A DNA stretch of 8,223 nt from Candidatus Bipolaricaulis sp. (GTDB lineage Bacteria; Bipolaricaulota; Bipolaricaulia; Bipolaricaulales; Bipolaricaulaceae), in NCBI GenBank assembly GCA_020062805.1, contig JAGUVP010000048.1, positions 1-8,223 on the forward strand. The letters are read 5' to 3'. Positions 2,290 through 7,803 of the stretch are shown here, piece after piece; within the stretch, counting starts at the first letter, position 1; every line of letters begins with the position of its first letter. The notes beneath the pieces were generated by a model that searched no databases, was not told where the DNA came from, and saw only the letters and a program-made list of their open reading frames with translations. The translations under genes were made by a program, and so were the position numbers.

Positions 2290-2499
2290 CTAACGCACCT
2301 CGCCCACCAGCGCGTCCACCGGACTCCGTACGCTCGCCGGGTCGCGGTTCAACACGCGGGTGCAAATCATCGTCGTCTTCACGTCGATGTGCCCAACCAA
2401 CTCCTGCACCGTCCGGATGTCGTTACCATCCTCCAGCACGTGCGTCGCGAACAAGTGCCGGACGCTGTGGCAGGTGGCCCACTTGGCCGGACCCTCGCT
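2290..2499 (-). pseudogene. intI: integron integrase (IntI), C-terminal remnant with mutated catalytic Tyr
   Basis: The minus strand encodes 69 residues and a TAG. It starts [20 protein letters not shown], then [32 protein letters not shown] and [14 protein letters not shown]. This is the C-terminal catalytic part of an integron tyrosine recombinase. HSVR is the His-x-x-Arg box and GH is the second His. The IYTHVLNR signature of IntI reads ICTRVLNR here, so the nucleophilic Tyr has become Cys (a one-base change). Everything N-terminal, including the IntI-specific insert and the first catalytic Arg, is missing, because mazF sequence begins within a few bases of the 5' end. The protein cannot recombine DNA. 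The stop codon overlaps a GTTAGGC core site. Confidence 0.9.
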
Positions 2500-2501
2500 C
2501 C

Positions 2502-2699
2502 TACAGACCCCCCAAGGACTCTGTGGCCCTGGTCGCGCAGGTGATCACCCTCGACAAGTTCACCCTGGCCGACCGGTGCGGGAAGCTGCCTTCGGAACAG
2601 GTCGAGCTGATCCTCTCCCGGCTCGACATCGTGCTTGGCAGGGGAGAAGCCGGATGGCACCGGCCGCTGGCCACCAGCCACGCACGTGACAACGCCTGA
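2502..2699 (+). pseudogene. mazF: mazF 3' fragment (C-terminal third)
   Basis: The frame reads [20 protein letters not shown], then TLADRCGKLP and EQVELILSRLDIVLGRGE, matching the C-terminal third of MazF/PemK toxins (family pattern GLPKDSVA, ITLDK, GRLP, LG). It has no start codon and begins where the 1251-1460 copy breaks off, on the same strand. Only about ten residues are missing between them. The simplest reading is one mazF gene split by the integron piece. The normal stop after LGR is lost and the frame runs on to TGA at 2697-2699. It is about 75-80 percent identical by eye to the remnant at 4190-4385. Confidence 0.8.
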
Positions 2700-2718
2700 C
2701 CCGAATGCCCCGAATGCA

Positions 2719-2753
2719 GCAACAATGCCGAGGCGCTGTTGCTACGGTAGAAT
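2719..2753 (+). promoter_or_regulatory. possible flavodoxin promoter with operator-like palindrome
   Basis: TAGAAT at 2748-2753 is a good -10 box 27 nt before the flavodoxin ATG; no strong -35 hexamer is seen. Just upstream, GCAACA (2719-2724) and TGTTGC (2737-2742) form a perfect 6-bp inverted repeat spaced by 12 nt, where a repressor could bind. GAATGCCCC occurs at 2703 and again at 2750, with GAATGC at 2712. Confidence 0.4.
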
Positions 2754-2780
2754 GCCCCAGCCCAGGGGTGACGTGACCCA

Positions 2781-3260
2781 ATGAGAGCACTCATTGTCGT
2801 TTTCTCCTACCATCACAAGAACACGGAGGCCGTGGCGCGGGTGATCGCCAAGGCCCTCGGCGCCGACGTCGTCGCGCCCAAGGACGTGAAGCCGACCGAC
2901 CTCGCGATGTACGACCTCGTCGGCTTCGGCTCGGGGATCTACGACGCCAAGCATCACCCCTCCGTTCTCCAGCTCGCCGATCGGTTGCCCGAGGCAAAAG
3001 GCAAGAAGGCGTTCATCTTCTCCACCTGCGGCCTGTTCGCGTTCGCCGTCTCCAACCGGTTCATCCGCAGCAACCACTCGGCGCTGCGCGAGAAACTGCT
3101 TGCCAAAGGGTACGAGGTTGTGGGCGAGTTCGGCTGCCCAGGCTTCAACACCAACGTCTTCCTCCGGTTTTTCGGCGGCATCAACAGGGGACGTCCAAAC
3201 GCTGCTGATCTGGAGCGTACCAAGGCCTTCGCCGAAGGCCTCGCCCACACTCGGGGCTAG
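2781..3260 (+). CDS. flavodoxin-family protein
   Basis: A 159-aa protein of normal flavodoxin size. It begins with the hydrophobic strand MRALIVVFSY, then HHKNTEAVARVIAKAL. The usual phosphate-binding loop of FMN flavodoxins (S/T-x-T-G-x-T) is replaced by SYHHKNTEAVA, a variant I recognise from a flavodoxin subgroup in archaea and anaerobes. YDLVGFGSGIYDAKHH (44-59) is the second FMN loop region. KKAFIFSTCG (75-84) is the third strand, and GEFGCPGFNT (115-124) and GGINRGRPNAADL (132-144) follow. It probably binds FMN and carries electrons in the cytosol; the partner is unknown. AGGGG lies about 12 nt before the ATG. It is intact and shows no sign of decay, unlike the genes to its left. Confidence 0.85.
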   Translation: MRALIVVFSYHHKNTEAVARVIAKALGADVVAPKDVKPTDLAMYDLVGFGSGIYDAKHHPSVLQLADRLPEAKGKKAFIFSTCGLFAFAVSNRFIRSNHSALREKLLAKGYEVVGEFGCPGFNTNVFLRFFGGINRGRPNAADLERTKAFAEGLAHTRG

Positions 3261-3269
3261 CGGCTGGGC

Positions 3270-3488
3270 GTAGAGGCCCGCGATGGCCCCGACCCGATCG
3301 AGGCCCAGTCAGTCAACTCCGTCCGGAGCAGCCCATGGCCCAGCAAGCGAGGAAGGGAGGTCCGCAAGTGCCTGTCCGAGGCAACGCTGCCCGTGTCCTC
3401 CTCCAACCCGTGCATCCGCGCGACCTACCGCCGACTGAAGGAAACGGGGAAGCCCGACAAGATGGGCAACAGACGGTACAGCATGTGA
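3270..3488 (+). pseudogene. IS110-family transposase, C-terminal remnant
   Basis: The plus frame is open from about 3270 to TGA at 3486-3488 and reads ARDGPDPIEAQSVNSVRSSP, then WPSKRGREVRKCLSEATLP and NPCIRATYRRLKETGKPDKM. IS110 transposases have GLDP, QSG-SV, SKRG, LRKALY and NPVIRAFYRRL-GKP in this order in their C-terminal Transposase_20 domain. The N-terminal DEDD catalytic domain is absent and there is no start codon. After GKPDKM the sequence leaves the family (GNRRYSM), and the vapC stop follows within 20 bp. It begins about 10 bp after the flavodoxin stop. I see no insertion sequence ends. Confidence 0.75.
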
Positions 3489-3505
3489 CCCCCTGCATCA
3501 CGGCG

Positions 3506-3943
3506 TTACGAGCGTCCTGAGCTGCGCTTCTCCAGAAACGACCGCGCCTTCAGCCGGGATGCCTCCACAACCCGATCGAAGTGCGCATCAGCATGCCACA
3601 ACTCGGCACCGGCGGCGGCTGCCGCCTGGGCGATCAGAAGGTCCGGCAGGGGGACCGAGAAGCCCTTCAGCCGCAACTTCTGACCCAACCGCGCTGCGCC
3701 CTCCCAGACCTCCGGCGTGAGGGCCACTTCATCCAACGCGTGAAGGCTCTCCAACAGGCGATCGAACGCACCTGCGTTCCTGGCCCCAACAAGGAGTTCA
3801 GCCTTCACCACCCAGCACGTGAGAAGAGATCCTTGGTCCAGGAGTCGCGCCAGCTCCTCCTTCAATTCCTCCCATCCGGCGGGCTGGAGATACCGGACCC
3901 ACAGGGAGGTATCAACGAGAATCGGCTGCTGTGTTGCGATCAT
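3506..3943 (-). CDS. vapC: VapC-type PIN-domain ribonuclease toxin
   Basis: A 145-aa protein starting MIATQQPILVDTSLWVRYLQ. It has the four PIN-domain acidic positions: Asp11 (LVDTSLW), Glu49 (VKAELL), Asp101 (LPDLLIA) and Asp119 with Asp123 (HADAHFD). These bind the metal ions used to cut RNA; VapC toxins commonly attack initiator tRNA or rRNA, but the target here is unknown. The ATG at 3943 overlaps the vapB stop as ATGA, the usual coupled arrangement. Longer in-frame starts upstream would lie inside vapB and are rejected. All key residues are present, so the toxin is likely active. Confidence 0.92.
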   Translation of the reverse strand: MIATQQPILVDTSLWVRYLQPAGWEELKEELARLLDQGSLLTCWVVKAELLVGARNAGAFDRLLESLHALDEVALTPEVWEGAARLGQKLRLKGFSVPLPDLLIAQAAAAAGAELWHADAHFDRVVEASRLKARSFLEKRSSGRS

Positions 3944-4152
3944 CTCTCGCCTGATTCGCGCCATCGGGCCAGCTCCTCCTCCGTCCATGTCACCAGGCCC
4001 GCCCCCGCCATCGTACGCAGCTTCGCCCGGGCGCGGTTGCGGACGAACTCCCGCAGAGCCGTCTCGATCACGTCGCGCTTCGTCTTTGCCCCGCCCACGC
4101 TCATCGCCTCTTCGATCAGCTCAGGATCCACCGTCACTGACAACCGCCTCAT
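3940..4152 (-). CDS. vapB: VapB-type ribbon-helix-helix antitoxin
   Basis: A 70-aa protein. MRRLSVTVDPELIEEAMSVG and TKRDVIETALREFVRNR form a ribbon-helix-helix DNA-binding domain (about residues 2-38). The tail with TWTEEELARW (about 55-64) is the type of segment that wraps the VapC active site. AAAGGAGGG lies just before the ATG at 4152, a near-perfect ribosome binding site, so longer upstream starts in the same frame are rejected. Its stop overlaps the vapC start. It should neutralise VapC and repress the shared promoter. Confidence 0.92.
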   Translation of the reverse strand: MRRLSVTVDPELIEEAMSVGGAKTKRDVIETALREFVRNRARAKLRTMAGAGLVTWTEEELARWRESGER

Positions 4153-4174
4153 GGTGCCCTCCTTTGGTGCCATG

Positions 4175-4180
4175 ATTGTA
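4175..4180 (-). promoter_or_regulatory. -10 box of the vapBC operon
   Basis: TACAAT is read on the minus strand, 22 nt before the vapB ATG, giving a short leader that still contains the ribosome binding site. The -35 region is weak. GGTG and CACC half sites flank the -10 box and could be part of a VapB operator. Confidence 0.45.
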
Positions 4181-4189
4181 CACCAGCGA

Positions 4190-4385
4190 AGGCCACCACA
4201 CGCGAACATCAGGGTTAGATCTCTGTGCGTGTAGCAGTCCCTGGCCCGCACGAACCTCACGCGGGCTCCCTGGTCGCCCAGATGATCACCCTCGACAAGT
4301 CCGTCCTCACCGACCGGTGCGGGAACTTGCCTTGGGAGAGGGCGAGCTGGTCCTGTCCAGGTCTGACGATCTGCTTCTCGGCTGA
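4190..4385 (+). pseudogene. mazF: second mazF 3' remnant, decayed
   Basis: Starting near 4190, PPHANIRV resembles the PLTSNLKL stretch of MazF. A stop (TAG) follows at about 4231. CCCGCACGAACC then recalls the family's LPAR segment, and SLVAQMITLDKSVLTDRCGN and LP (about 4268-4333) match the C-terminal third. A frameshift follows, after which EGELVLSRSDDLLLG ends at TGA 4383-4385, the usual terminus. Several bases after the GLP codons are missing. It is a paralogue of the fragment at 2502-2699. No 5' half is present; the intact vapBC operon begins where it should be, on the other strand. Confidence 0.65.
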
Positions 4386-4420
4386 AAGCTCTTGTCCCTA
4401 GGCCATCGTAGACTCCACAC

Positions 4421-4444
4421 ATGCACGGAACAAGACCTGACCCC
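4421..4444 (-). repeat. left inverted repeat flanking the RelA/SpoT pair
   Basis: Read on the minus strand this is GGGGTCAG, then GTCTTGTTCCGTGCAT. It matches 6677-6700 in opposite orientation at 23 of 24 positions (G instead of A at position 9). The conserved GGGGTCAG end points inward toward the RelA/SpoT genes and the GCAT end points outward. Sequences beyond either end are not similar. Confidence 0.85.
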
Positions 4445-4449
4445 GCATA

Positions 4450-4470
4450 CGCATAACGCCCCCCTATGCG
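4450..4470 (-). terminator. weak stem-loop at the end of the RelA/SpoT operon
   Basis: CGCATA and TATGCG pair as a 6-bp stem around a 9-nt G-rich loop, overlapping the stop codon at 4464-4466. There is no U-tract, so it is a poor intrinsic terminator and may only be an mRNA end structure. Confidence 0.25.
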
Positions 4471-5576
4471 CGTCCGCTGGATCCTTTGGTTCGACGTGCC
4501 GGTTGTGCTCCGGCCAGTTTCTTGCACCCGAAGTCAACCAGGCGAATGAAATCTTGGGCGTCGGTGAAGTAGTTCCTGAACGCCAGACGGACTTCGTCCG
4601 TGGTGTCAGCTCGGACGAGTACAATGTCGATGCCAGGTCTCTCACGCTCAAAAACAAAGAGCGCGCGTAATGCCTCGGTTGCATCACGGAACGTCCTCAC
4701 CTCGAGGTCGCCGACCTCTGGGAAGATCAAGATAGCGTTCCTATTTGAGCTTCTCTGTGTGTTCGCGACGTTCAGCCCGCGCAGCATTCGCATGAGTGAC
4801 ACTTCAGACTCGACTTCCTGGAACTCCCGCACAACGTCACGATCAGGCATGTCCGGGAATGGTCCATTCGTGCGCTCGTAGACACGGGCGAGAATCTCAC
4901 TGGCGAGGCCCATCGCGTGTTCGTATCGGCGGTCGCCAACCTGGAACTTCGGCTGACTCTCGGTGATGAACCCAATGACTTCCACCGAGGTGGCCCAAGC
5001 GTGCTGGACCAGTGTTCGGTACTGGATCTCAACCAGCAGCCCTTTGAGGGGCTTTCCAACGACTGAGTTAACATCGTAGGAATAGACATCGTGGATTCCG
5101 CGGTATCCCGTGGACTTAGGGCGCTTGATGTAGTCGTATCTATCCAACTCATTCCGGCGCTCGTGGTGGAAGCGAGCCTTATGGAAGCCTCCACGGAAAT
5201 CGTAGAGGTCCTTCACCGTCTTGAAGATGAGTCGGCATCCCGCCACGTCGTCCATGCGCGAGAGCTGCATGTCCGGGTACCGCTGGAGTTTGCCGACTAT
5301 CGTCGATCGTCTCTTGTGCCGTTGCGCCACCACGATCTCGCTCCCACGCGTTCTCATGCGCAAGATTGCCTGGAACGTATTCAGCACAGGCCGGTGCGCC
5401 GCTCGCCACTCATCGAAAACGGAGATGTCGGCCTCGCTGGGATTGCCGTCCCTGATGGCTTGACCAGCGCGGTTGACCCGTGACCTCGATCCGCCGGGAA
5501 ACGGGGTGGCGTCTGAGGGCCCCAACACTTGCGGGAATCTAACTTGTCTGCTCATAGTCCGCCGCACGTCTGCCAT
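4464..5576 (-). CDS. RelA/SpoT-domain alarmone synthetase-like protein (370 aa, single-domain type with C-terminal extension)
   Basis: The synthetase-type RelA/SpoT domain covers about residues 70-205. Motifs are RHKRRSTIVGKLQRYP (86-101), MDDVAGCRLIF (108-118) with the metal-binding Asp, DYIKRPKSTGYRGIHDVY (148-165) with the substrate-stacking Tyr and the His, and VEIQYRTLVQHAW (182-194) with the catalytic Glu. There is no HD hydrolase, TGS or ACT domain, so it cannot degrade (p)ppGpp. The C-terminal part (about 205-370), with FERERPGIDIVLVRAD and NYFTDAQDFIRLV, occurs in other stand-alone RelA/SpoT proteins; its role is unknown to me. It could make (p)ppGpp or (p)ppApp or, like some toxic small synthetases, pyrophosphorylate tRNA. 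ATG at 5576 is the first ATG; ATG at 5555 and TTG at 5585 are alternatives, none with a clear ribosome binding site, so translation may depend on the upstream gene 35 nt away. Confidence 0.88.
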   Translation of the reverse strand: MADVRRTMSRQVRFPQVLGPSDATPFPGGSRSRVNRAGQAIRDGNPSEADISVFDEWRAAHRPVLNTFQAILRMRTRGSEIVVAQRHKRRSTIVGKLQRYPDMQLSRMDDVAGCRLIFKTVKDLYDFRGGFHKARFHHERRNELDRYDYIKRPKSTGYRGIHDVYSYDVNSVVGKPLKGLLVEIQYRTLVQHAWATSVEVIGFITESQPKFQVGDRRYEHAMGLASEILARVYERTNGPFPDMPDRDVVREFQEVESEVSLMRMLRGLNVANTQRSSNRNAILIFPEVGDLEVRTFRDATEALRALFVFERERPGIDIVLVRADTTDEVRLAFRNYFTDAQDFIRLVDFGCKKLAGAQPARRTKGSSGRA

Positions 5577-5583
5577 GACGCGC

Positions 5584-5620
5584 AAGGAATGGCGCAGAGC
5601 GAAGCGGCGCGCTATTCCTT
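5584..5620. other. hairpin between the two RelA/SpoT genes
   Basis: Arms AAGGAATGGCGC (5584-5595) and GCGCTATTCCTT (5609-5620) pair over 12 positions with one mismatch around a 13-nt loop. In the minus-strand mRNA the first arm contains the last codons and TAG of the upstream gene, and the second arm ends 8 nt before the ATG of the downstream gene. No U-tract follows, so translational coupling or an RNA processing site is more likely than termination. Confidence 0.55.
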
Positions 5621-6388
5621 GTCGCCGTCCATGGCCTTGTTGGCCTCTTCGTCATCGTCCTTGAAACCCTCGCGTTGCCCGTCTCGCAGCTTCTCGTCAG
5701 CCATCGCCCGATAGGTGTCACGGAACTTCATGAGGGTACTGTCCTCAAGGGCCAGTCTTCCTGCAACATCAGCAAGGAACTGCTCTAGTCTCCCGTCCCT
5801 CACCCCGGTGCTCTTTACCTTGTAGAAGAACTCGTGGGTTATGTCCCCCCACGCGTCTTGAAGCTTTGAGCGTATCTGTATTTCGCACAGGATGTTCTCT
5901 GGACTTACGACAACCTTCTCTCCAACCCTCCTGACCCCGTCGTAAGGCACCTCGGCGAAGACGTGTATTGCTCTGTAGCCTGCGGGTTGAGGGTTCGCGA
6001 TGTAGTCCTTTACGGGGTGAAGCGTCTCGTCTGCGACTCGGAAGTGGCTTGAACGCCGTATGAAGTTCAGAAGACCTCGACAGTCGTCAACGAACCAGCA
6101 CGTAATGCGGGCACCAATGAGATCCTTGACCACTTCGATTGGGTAGTAGAACTGAGGCCACCCCTCATTCTCGAGTTTCTTGAGGAAGCTGGGCAGCTTC
6201 TTGACTCGCGTTGTCACCTGAACGGCCTCGGGCGGCAAGCGATGGGTGATGGTGTAAGCCAGGCAGAGCTGCCGTAACTGAATGCGCAGAAGCTCAGCAA
6301 CCTGCTCCAGCTCTGCCTCGTATCGTGCGTAGAAGCGCGTTGCCCTATCTCTGAGCTGTGGCGGCGTCAGGTTCTCAGTGCCGCTCAT
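5612..6388 (-). CDS. RelA/SpoT-domain alarmone synthetase-like protein (258 aa)
   Basis: Start ATG at 6388 has AAGAGGAG eight nt upstream; an open frame reaching 6565 has no ribosome binding site. An N-terminal helical region (11-50, FYARYEAELEQVAELLRIQL) precedes the synthetase domain. TTRVKKLPSFLKKLENEG (59-76) is the Arg/Lys nucleotide-binding motif, and VVKDLIGARITCW (86-98) carries the metal-binding Asp89. DYIANPQPAGYRAIHVF (128-144) carries the stacking Tyr138 and His142, and CEIQIRSKLQDAWGDITHEF (168-187) carries the catalytic Glu169. The tail (about 232-258) is short and highly acidic. No hydrolase or regulatory domain is present. It is distinct in sequence from its neighbour, so the pair is not a recent duplication. 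First gene of the operon; substrate unknown. Confidence 0.88.
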   Translation of the reverse strand: MSGTENLTPPQLRDRATRFYARYEAELEQVAELLRIQLRQLCLAYTITHRLPPEAVQVTTRVKKLPSFLKKLENEGWPQFYYPIEVVKDLIGARITCWFVDDCRGLLNFIRRSSHFRVADETLHPVKDYIANPQPAGYRAIHVFAEVPYDGVRRVGEKVVVSPENILCEIQIRSKLQDAWGDITHEFFYKVKSTGVRDGRLEQFLADVAGRLALEDSTLMKFRDTYRAMADEKLRDGQREGFKDDDEEANKAMDGDKE

Positions 6389-6676
6389 ATGGTCGCTCCT
6401 CTTGTCTCGCGGTTGCATGCTTCCGAGGCCAACCACGATTGGTGTACGACCCTGCACGCTAGCAGCGTGGGCGATCCTTTGCAAATTAGCCTTATCGTCA
6501 CCCTTCTCGCCTCTTGTGCTCCCCCATACTGACATGCGTATCCATGCATGCCATCCTACAGCCATTAAGCTACTGCAGCAAGCGCGAGAGTTGTCTCACA
6601 CAAGATGAGCATGAAGGGTGTCCGAGGTTCTCACGCAAGGCGAGCACAGGCGTGGGGCTGAATCTCCGGGGTCTCC
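6389..6676. other. 288-bp leader region upstream of the RelA/SpoT operon
   Basis: No gene is supported here. Besides the promoter described separately, it holds a 16-nt direct repeat at 6594-6609 and 6629-6644 (TCTCACACAAGATGAG and TCTCACGCAAGGCGAG, 13 of 16 identical, 35 nt apart) and a short repeat CTCCGGGGT at 6665 and 6673. A minus-strand frame continues from the RelA/SpoT gene to 6565 but lacks coding character. Confidence 0.45.
6455..6484 (-). promoter_or_regulatory. candidate promoter of the RelA/SpoT operon
   Basis: TTGCAA (6479-6484) and TAGCGT (6456-6461) on the minus strand are spaced by 17 nt and lie about 70 nt before the ATG at 6388. The -10 box overlaps a palindrome, CACGCT-AGC-AGCGTG (6455-6469), that could be an operator or a leader hairpin. 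Confidence 0.4.
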
Positions 6677-6700
6677 GGGGTCAGATCTTGTTCCGTGCAT
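6677..6700 (+). repeat. right inverted repeat flanking the RelA/SpoT pair
   Basis: Reads GGGGTCAG, then ATCTTGTTCCGTGCAT, the mirror partner of 4421-4444 (23 of 24 identical). It lies 4 bp from the end of the small ORF at 6705-6887, which may have been cut by it. No target-site duplication is evident outside the two repeats. Confidence 0.85.
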
Positions 6701-6704
6701 TGCG

Positions 6705-6887
6705 CTACCAGACGAGTGCGTCTGTGCCCCGTTCACAGCGGGCGTGCTCGATGAGGGCAACGTCCGTCAGATCCTGGACGAACTCCTTGTCCCCGAGCCG
6801 GCGAGCGACAATCGCCGCTTGCTCAGGCTTAGGCAGAGCCTTGAACGCTGTCCAGAAGACCTCAGCTGTGGCTTCCTTGGACGTCAT
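6705..6887 (-). CDS. small antitoxin-like protein, probably 3' truncated
   Basis: A 60-aa ORF. ATG at 6887 follows GGGGAGGGA by about six nt, one of the strongest ribosome binding sites in the window. It reads MTSKEATAEVFWTAFKALPK, then PEQAAIVARRLGDKEFVQDL and TDVALIEHARCERG. The pattern (a helix with LPKPEQ, then FVQDLTDVALIE) resembles small antitoxins that sit before ParE/RelE-type toxins, where the protein continues for another 10-20 residues. Here DALVW and a stop come 4 bp before the right inverted repeat, and no toxin gene follows. I infer truncation of a TA module by arrival of the repeat-bounded segment. The family name is not certain. Confidence 0.5.
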   Translation of the reverse strand: MTSKEATAEVFWTAFKALPKPEQAAIVARRLGDKEFVQDLTDVALIEHARCERGTDALVW

Positions 6888-6945
6888 ACCGATCCCTCCC
6901 CTTCTCCCTCACCGGAAAACGGGCAATCGGACCCCGTCTCGTGCG

Positions 6946-7803
6946 TCACTCTCCCAGGCTCCCGCGCAACGCCTCCCACTCCTCCTTGGGAATCATGTAG
7001 GTGTGCTCGCGGCCGGGGAAGGCGCCGTCCTTCACGTCCTTGATGTAGTTCTGGAACGCCCCGAGCATCACCGACGACACGTCGGCGTACTTCTTCACGA
7101 ACTTCGGGGTGAACGCCTCGAACAGACCCAGAATGTCGTGGACGATCAGGAGCTGCCCGTGGCACGCCGGCCCGGAGCCGATGGAGAGAATCGGCACCTT
7201 CGCCCGCCCGGTGATCACCTCCGCCACCTTGGCGGGAATCGCCTCCAGGAGGATCGAGAACGCCCCGACTTCCTCCAGGCACTTCGCGTCGTCCATGAGG
7301 GCCTTGGCGGTGGCCGCGCTCCGGCCCTGGGACTTGAGCCCGCCGATCGCGCTCGCCGCCTGGGGGGTGAGGCCGATGTGCCCCATCACCGGGATCCCCG
7401 CCTTCACGATCGCCTCCACCCGCTCCGCCATCCGCGCCCCGCCCTCGAGCTTGATCGCATCCGCGCCGCCCTCGGAGATGAACCGGCCCGCGTTGCGGAC
7501 CGCGGTCTCGTTCGACGGCTGGTAGGACATGTACGGCATGTCGCCCACCACGAACGCCCGCGTCGCGGCCCGGCTCACGGCGGCGGTGATGGCGATCATG
7601 AAGTCCATCGTCGCCGGGAGGGTCGTCTTGTGCCCGAGCAGGCACATCGCCCCGGAGTCGCCGACGAGGATCATGTCCATCCCCGCCCGGTCCTCCAGCA
7701 GCGCCGTCGGGTAGTCGTAGGCGGTGAGGAACGTGATCTTCTCCCCCCGCTCCACCATCGCCAGAAGATCCGGGATCCTCACTTTCGCCCGCGTCTCGTC
7801 CAT
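6946..7803 (-). CDS. panB: 3-methyl-2-oxobutanoate hydroxymethyltransferase (ketopantoate hydroxymethyltransferase)
   Basis: A 285-aa TIM-barrel enzyme of normal length. It adds a hydroxymethyl group from 5,10-methylene-tetrahydrofolate to 2-oxoisovalerate, the first committed step toward pantothenate and CoA, in the cytosol. ITFLTAYDYPTALLEDRAG (23-41), ILVGDS (45-50, Asp49), VVGDMPYMSYQ (85-95, Asp88), IKLEGG (117-122, Lys118 and Glu120) and LLEAIP (185-190, Glu187) supply the metal, substrate and general-base positions of the family. MGHIGLTPQ (140-148) is also typical. The C-terminal CDGQ signature reads CHGQ (214-217), an unusual substitution outside the catalytic set. AAGGAGGAG directly precedes the ATG at 7803; longer in-frame starts are rejected. 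No other pan gene is in the window. Confidence 0.95.
   Translation of the reverse strand: MDETRAKVRIPDLLAMVERGEKITFLTAYDYPTALLEDRAGMDMILVGDSGAMCLLGHKTTLPATMDFMIAITAAVSRAATRAFVVGDMPYMSYQPSNETAVRNAGRFISEGGADAIKLEGGARMAERVEAIVKAGIPVMGHIGLTPQAASAIGGLKSQGRSAATAKALMDDAKCLEEVGAFSILLEAIPAKVAEVITGRAKVPILSIGSGPACHGQLLIVHDILGLFEAFTPKFVKKYADVSSVMLGAFQNYIKDVKDGAFPGREHTYMIPKEEWEALRGSLGE

Follow-up and report, generated by a model that had tools for sequence, protein, structure and literature searches.

Two RelA/SpoT-type synthetase genes, one of them CapRel-like, in a probable insert bounded by repeats near panB of a Candidatus Bipolaricaulis genome

Results

A probable two-gene insert between inverted repeats

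The contig JAGUVP010000048.1 of Candidatus Bipolaricaulis sp. (assembly GCA_020062805.1; 1.7 Mb, 73% complete), analyzed over 8,223 nucleotides (the window), carries two genes for RelA/SpoT-type synthetases, SAS258 and SAS370, near panB. We hold it probable that positions 4445 to 6676 form a two-gene insert placed exactly between two terminal repeats of transposase elements and likely acquired horizontally, and that the likely gene products are a phage-sensing toxin-antitoxin (TA) fusion similar to CapRel (SAS370) and an independently acting RelQ/RelP-like alarmone synthetase (SAS258). An earlier reading made from the letters alone (the sequence-only reading) had described two adjacent minus-strand, single-domain synthetase genes 35 nt apart, with key catalytic residues intact and without an HD hydrolase domain, enclosed by 24-bp inverted repeats, and all of this was borne out. 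PF04607 was the sole Pfam domain in SAS258 (74.3 bits) and in SAS370 (54.2 bits; cut-off of 27 for both), alignments showed the catalytic residues to be kept in both synthetase domains, the open reading frame (ORF) listing of the window gave the common strand and the spacing, and the two copies of the repeat, R, were identical at 23 of 24 positions once one was reverse-complemented (Table 1).

The proposal that the genes make up a separate, acquired module delimited by the repeats was supported by the sister species, in which the pair is absent, and by a step in GC content (57.7% between the repeats versus 64.9% on their left side and 67.4% on their right). panB was present in 11 of the 12 genomes of the genus, our own (G000) included. 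Among the 120 relatives of the window's PanB that were listed, those at 79 to 91% identity with an organism name are labeled Candidatus Acetothermia, Bipolaricaulota or Bipolaricaulaceae, in keeping with a host from this phylum. In G005, homology to the window runs through panB, the 60-amino-acid (aa) ORF and R as far as 6677; the MazF-like remnant lies no more than some 25 bases further on, and nothing of the SAS pair was present. Homology of G006 covers 2513 to 4445 (1943 bp, 85%) and, separately, 6677 to 6822, stopping at both R ends, between which this genome has approximately 2.1 kb of other DNA, in which lie a helix-turn-helix and peptidase-M78 gene (E 8e-14) as well as an ORF of 152 aa; its panB is separated from the slot by a helicase gene and another R unit. 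In G007, R and the flank designated tail a lie approximately 30 bases after panB and the window alignment ends at 4449, and in G010 alignments end at 4444 to 4451 and at 6671; in these two genomes homology breaks no more than 6 bases from the repeat ends.

In 6 of 11 genomes the first ORF longer than 250 aa downstream of panB was low in GC (54 to 60%) and oriented like panB; the other five had no such gene. In G000 this ORF belonged to the SAS pair, in G006 it encoded a UvrD-type helicase, in G004 and G011 it encoded N6/N4 DNA methylases, and in G008 and G010 it had no Pfam match. With such cargo in 6 of 11 genomes, the region downstream of panB (window 4422 to 6945) seems to be an insertion hotspot in the genus. 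In PADLOC, the G006 helicase matched GajB (E 5.5e-39) in part and at helicase-superfamily level, the methylases of G004 and G011 matched a type II methyltransferase model over nearly the full length (E 4.4e-145 and 3.9e-147), and the ORFs of G008 and G010 had no match. Toward its end the G010 ORF (L206:1347-2462) carries the sequence RNSVSAH, in which the HEPN motif R-x4-6-H can be read by eye.

Part of the leader of SAS258 (6424 to 6658) resembles stretches at three other loci of the genus, L120:3230-3361, L151:4673-4837 and L134:9506-9576 (70 to 93% over 71 to 166 bp); the SAS258 and SAS370 genes themselves matched none of the genus loci compared. In L120 the stretch lies directly upstream of another ORF, and it recurs at repeat-bearing loci; possibly it is a shared promoter or recombination site.

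R resembles the ends of Y1-transposase elements

Allowing up to 3 mismatches, R had 15 copies in its own genome, the two of the window included, and a control pattern read backwards had 0, so that the matches exceed chance. Of 20 genomes searched, the own genome among them, 8 carried R, all from a single genus, with up to 17 copies and with 6 to 17 in each of the four richest. R is therefore a dispersed repeat and not private to the gene pair. An exact 18-base R pattern had 0 matches in viral contigs.

Y1-transposase genes of the phylum, though not every one, are framed by inverted GGGGTCAG-type ends. Alignments between element copies (L156/L162, L164/L165, L158/L164 and L158/L165) end no more than 2 bases from both element ends, and that of L161/L165 ends at R on one side, the other side being cut by the contig. 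At L160 a 14-base R core stands on both sides of a PF01797 gene. In contig C268 of G000 the left end beside a PF01797 gene is R-type and the right end has this 14-base core too. Since Y1 genes are framed by R at both ends and homology between copies stops there, R is best read as the terminal repeat of a Y1-transposase element, with GGGG outermost. Units of 290 to 370 bp that resemble miniature inverted-repeat transposable elements, with R at both ends, were found at L139:6327-6619, L144:3125-3416, L134:7086-7453 and L133:6597-6955; one type (L139 and L144) equals both flanks of the window's R copies joined, halves that the SAS pair separates in the window.

SAS370 is probably a CapRel-like fusion and SAS258 a RelQ/RelP-like synthetase

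SAS370 matches the PADLOC profile PDC-S33 (residues 27 to 351 on 6 to 342 of 349; E 1.4e-97) and PHROG 4773 across nearly its full length. As in the CapRel subfamily, its synthetase domain is N-terminal with intact catalytic residues, and R86, K88, D110, R115, Y158, E183 and Q185 were invariant in 16 of 16 aligned rows, including CapRel-SJ46. Its C-terminal extension, suggested in the sequence-only reading as a contact with a partner, instead matches the built-in antitoxin/sensor domain of CapRel, an antitoxin-like pseudo-zinc-finger domain fused at the C-terminus; the register of this match was taken from the family alignment and structure. The columns of the CapRel neutralization motif YXXY (Y352/Y355 of CapRel-SJ46) read F-R-N-Y in SAS370, and all 33 close relatives, as well as 5 of 16 rows of the CapRel-containing alignment, have F as the first residue. 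Because of this replacement we term SAS370 CapRel-like and keep it out of the CapRel subfamily. The second in-frame Met, at 5555, agrees with the N-termini of several homologues. At E 1e-3, 3098 proteins match SAS370, not all of the same clade, and a literature search on PDC-S33 found no paper.

The nearest folds of SAS258 are RelQ and RelP, with which it shares a single synthetase domain and its catalytic residues. It scored 67.4 bits with the NCBIfam YjbM equivalog model NF053588, far under the cut-off of 320. Its acidic tail, also suggested as a contact, is real and lacks conservation within its family. All 24 relatives of SAS258 in viral contigs had at most 34% identity, so that none is of the 258 type and an occurrence of such genes in viral contigs was rejected.

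The gene pair was not found at the other loci examined

The sequence-only reading had suggested that the two synthetases could form a hetero-oligomer or that one may control the other. The pairing was not conserved in the loci examined: a 370-type gene was absent from 24 of 24 loci and 24 of 24 genomes with a 258-type gene, and among 13 loci carrying a 370-type gene (at least 50% identity) none had a 258-type gene. A conserved two-gene system, with genes conserved together as in type II TA systems, was therefore rejected. A plasmid DNA search with the whole slot gave a single relative, covering 21% of the slot in its SAS370 part, and no SAS258 match was found in plasmids at E 1e-20. Among the matches listed in a literature search on CapRel/SAS operons, no such pair appeared in titles or abstract openings. 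Nothing found requires joint action of SAS258 and SAS370.

Alarmone enzymes are scarce in Bipolaricaulota

The phylum was sampled with 100 genomes, mostly incomplete metagenome assemblies, of which 38 were near complete, alongside 14 control genomes. PF04607 was found in 4 of the 100 genomes, 2 of the 38 and 11 of the controls. No phylum genome matched the long RelA/SpoT homologue (RSH) model over its cut-off (10 of the controls did), and weak matches, the SAS genes among them, were seen in 7. None of the 20 genomes searched for the HD_4 hydrolase family, the own genome among them, gave a match; 10 of the controls were positive. The near-complete subset agrees with the full sample on this scarcity of stringent-response enzymes, and judging from these profile searches the phylum seems to be without a classical stringent response. 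Few free-living groups without RSHs, such as Planctomycetes-Verrucomicrobia-Chlamydiae bacteria, some Mycoplasma and some spirochetes, are named in an older survey (PMC3153485). Literature searches for Bipolaricaulota with stringent response and for Acetothermia with ppGpp found no paper.

At E 1e-20, SAS258 was found in 1 and SAS370 in 2 of the 100 genomes. The second SAS370, found in G046, shares 82% identity and is interrupted by a TAG; a relative in G482 likewise has a stop codon within the matched frame. Beside the broken relative of G046, L174:6398-7885 encodes a 495-aa protein with cytidine-deaminase and RecG C-terminal-like domains.

Flanking genes

The sequence-only reading had also placed the pair amid TA and integron debris. 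This stood for the integrase and PemK/MazF remnants; the flanking VapBC genes, judged by their profile matches, look intact and are probably not debris. VapB scored 40.3 bits (cut-off of 23.4) and VapC/PIN 49.1 bits (cut-off of 23.6) in Pfam; VapC was marginally below its NCBIfam cut-off (78 versus 80) and VapB had no NCBIfam match. Positions 4268 to 4337, in tail a, are 86% identical to 2527 to 2596 and have no Pfam match of their own. Stretch 1600 to 1690, 3' of a phospholipid-methyltransferase gene (1689 to 2219), contains by eye what we take to be an attC-like site, and with the nearby integrase remnant this is a possible leftover of a one-cassette integron. Rfam at gathering thresholds gave no match anywhere in the window.

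Table 1. Features of the insert and its surroundings in the window
Feature	Position	Strand	Description
SAS258	5612-6388	-	258 aa; putative stand-alone RelQ/RelP-like RelA/SpoT synthetase
SAS370	4464-5576	-	370 aa; putative CapRel-like fused toxic small alarmone synthetase (toxSAS) TA (PDC-S33 / phrog_4773 family)
Repeat R, left copy	4422-4445	-	CGGGGTCAGGTCTTGTTCCGTGCA on minus strand; GGGG end toward gene pair
Repeat R, right copy	6676-6699	+	CGGGGTCAGATCTTGTTCCGTGCA; GGGG end toward gene pair
Leader 5' of SAS258	6389-6675	-	Similar in part to stretches at three other genus loci
Tail i (60-aa ORF between panB and right R)	6705-6887	-	Small-antitoxin likeness by eye only; no Pfam match
panB	6946-7803	-	Conserved anchor gene adjoining cargo slot
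Tail a (flank left of R)	4225-4401	+	Second copy of MazF C-terminal remnant
VapBC TA genes	VapB 3940-4152, VapC 3506-3955	-	Flanking, outside module (3506-4152)
PemK/MazF C-terminal remnant	2523-2699		17.4 bits, below cut-off of 23.1
Integrase C-terminal remnant	2290-2454		26.1 bits, below cut-off of 27.1

Discussion

By analogy with CapRel, SAS370 at rest would be closed, with its C-terminal pseudo-zinc-finger domain over the ATP site and the FRNY motif keeping it shut; binding of a phage protein to that domain would open the enzyme, which would then add pyrophosphate to the 3' ends of tRNA and so halt translation. SAS258 would move a pyrophosphate group from ATP onto a guanosine nucleotide, yielding (p)ppGpp or a related nucleotide, and since no HD_4 hydrolase was found in the host, its activity would have to be held low in another way. 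Y1 transposition or recombination between the repeats may have moved the cargo.

The layout would also suit one functional system, be it a hetero-oligomer, a restraint of SAS258 in trans by the C-terminal domain of SAS370, or a tuning of SAS370 by (p)ppGpp from SAS258. The closely spaced genes share a strand and a single upstream leader, the SAS370 stop codon lies 18 bases from R, both domains retain their catalytic residues, and a free synthetase needs some limit where HD_4 is unmatched. We nevertheless regard such a system as unlikely, as the gene types were never together in the 24 and 13 other loci, SAS370 has its own CapRel-like regulatory domain and the acidic tail of SAS258 is not conserved. 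Quite unlikely, too, is a two-enzyme alarm operon in which a RelQ-like synthetase and a sensor-toxin of an FXXY clade of CapRel-like proteins would regulate one another and, as one exchangeable cargo beside panB, would introduce alarmone and tRNA-pyrophosphate chemistry to a phylum that showed no long RSH and, in the genomes searched, no HD_4. That both genes are ordinary housekeeping synthetases of the host stringent response would fit the RelQ and RelP folds nearest to SAS258 and the surroundings of its relatives (Ferrimonas and others), which are single, among ordinary-looking genes and, in ORF listings inspected by eye, without an obvious antitoxin. The scarcity of PF04607 and of long RSHs in the phylum, the GC step at the module and the regulatory domain fused to SAS370 make it very unlikely, and at E 1e-20 the rest of the genus, 11 genomes, gave no match to either gene, so that the genes have no conserved place in it. 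A chance pile-up of decaying mobile debris, with genes unexpressed or nonfunctional, would account for the partial integrase and MazF remnants, the in-frame stop codons in the relatives of G046 and G482 and the outcome of a consensus scan of 4300 to 6950, which gave no promoter-like site; but both frames are open with catalytic residues kept and the adjoining VapBC looks intact, so that we find this account very doubtful.

The reading we favor, an acquired insert of two independently acting genes, has to be set against several observations, the result of the promoter scan among them. The closest relatives of both proteins (70 to 85% identity) are metagenomic and lie outside the 24 and 13 loci. 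GGGG, the outer end of the element, faces the genes in both repeats, so that the pair lies outside two element ends and not within one intact transposon, and the second end of either element was not found in the window. The alignments of L161/L164, and of L164 with a second L165 copy, extend past R into shared flanks. With the window set aside, the GGGG side of R copies had the lower GC in 23 of 42 cases (P = 0.12) at 300 bp, 25 of 41 (P = 0.07) at 600 bp and 24 of 39 (P = 0.04) at 1000 bp; as a general rule of R this is weak and, by eye, comes mainly from G000 and G010. In SAS370, Phe stands at the first tyrosine of YXXY, a change that could alter regulation, CapRel A341 aligns with arginine, and the pairwise match to CapRel is nonsignificant in its C-terminal half taken by itself (-0.2 bits). 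The label of defense for neighboring cargo, finally, follows from family names.

If the favored reading is true, the widespread candidate-defense family PDC-S33 would gain a mechanism, that of a CapRel-like fused TA, here with FXXY for YXXY. Alarmone-type enzymes would then be arriving as cargo in a phylum whose 100 sampled genomes showed no long RSH, so that the role of (p)ppGpp would become testable in a cell without the usual machinery. The repeat-bounded panB slot would offer a handle on the exchange of small defense and TA modules among Bipolaricaulota species.

Among known systems, SAS370 is most like CapRel (e.g., CapRel-SJ46; PDB 7ztb and 9erv), with which it shares the domain order (N-terminal synthetase, linking helices, C-terminal strand-strand-helix-strand), the catalytic residues and the switch position, and from which it differs in FRNY for YXXY, in the arginine at the A341 position and in an identity of 25 to 28%. 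PDC-S33 and PHROG 4773 are entries without a mechanism, and the CapRel-like one is our proposal. The pair resembles toxSAS operons of the FaRel2/ATfaRel2 type as a two-gene arrangement with a synthetase. SAS258 has the single domain, fold and intact catalytic residues of RelQ (YjbM/SAS1) and RelP (YwaC/SAS2) but falls into a family of its own, with its own conserved C-terminal stretch. R is similar to the ends of IS200/IS605-like Y1 elements and to the repeats of repetitive extragenic palindrome (REP)-associated tyrosine transposases (RAYTs) in that it matches Y1 terminal inverted repeats of the same genome and has scattered copies; RAYT repeats are likewise described as scattered around the genome (PMC2817692). 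REP/RAYT proper calls for a REP palindrome with a tetranucleotide of GTAG type and for high copy numbers, usually >100, whereas R is low, with 15 copies in its own genome and 6 to 17 in the four richest, and its copies here appear to mark the edges of exchangeable cargo.
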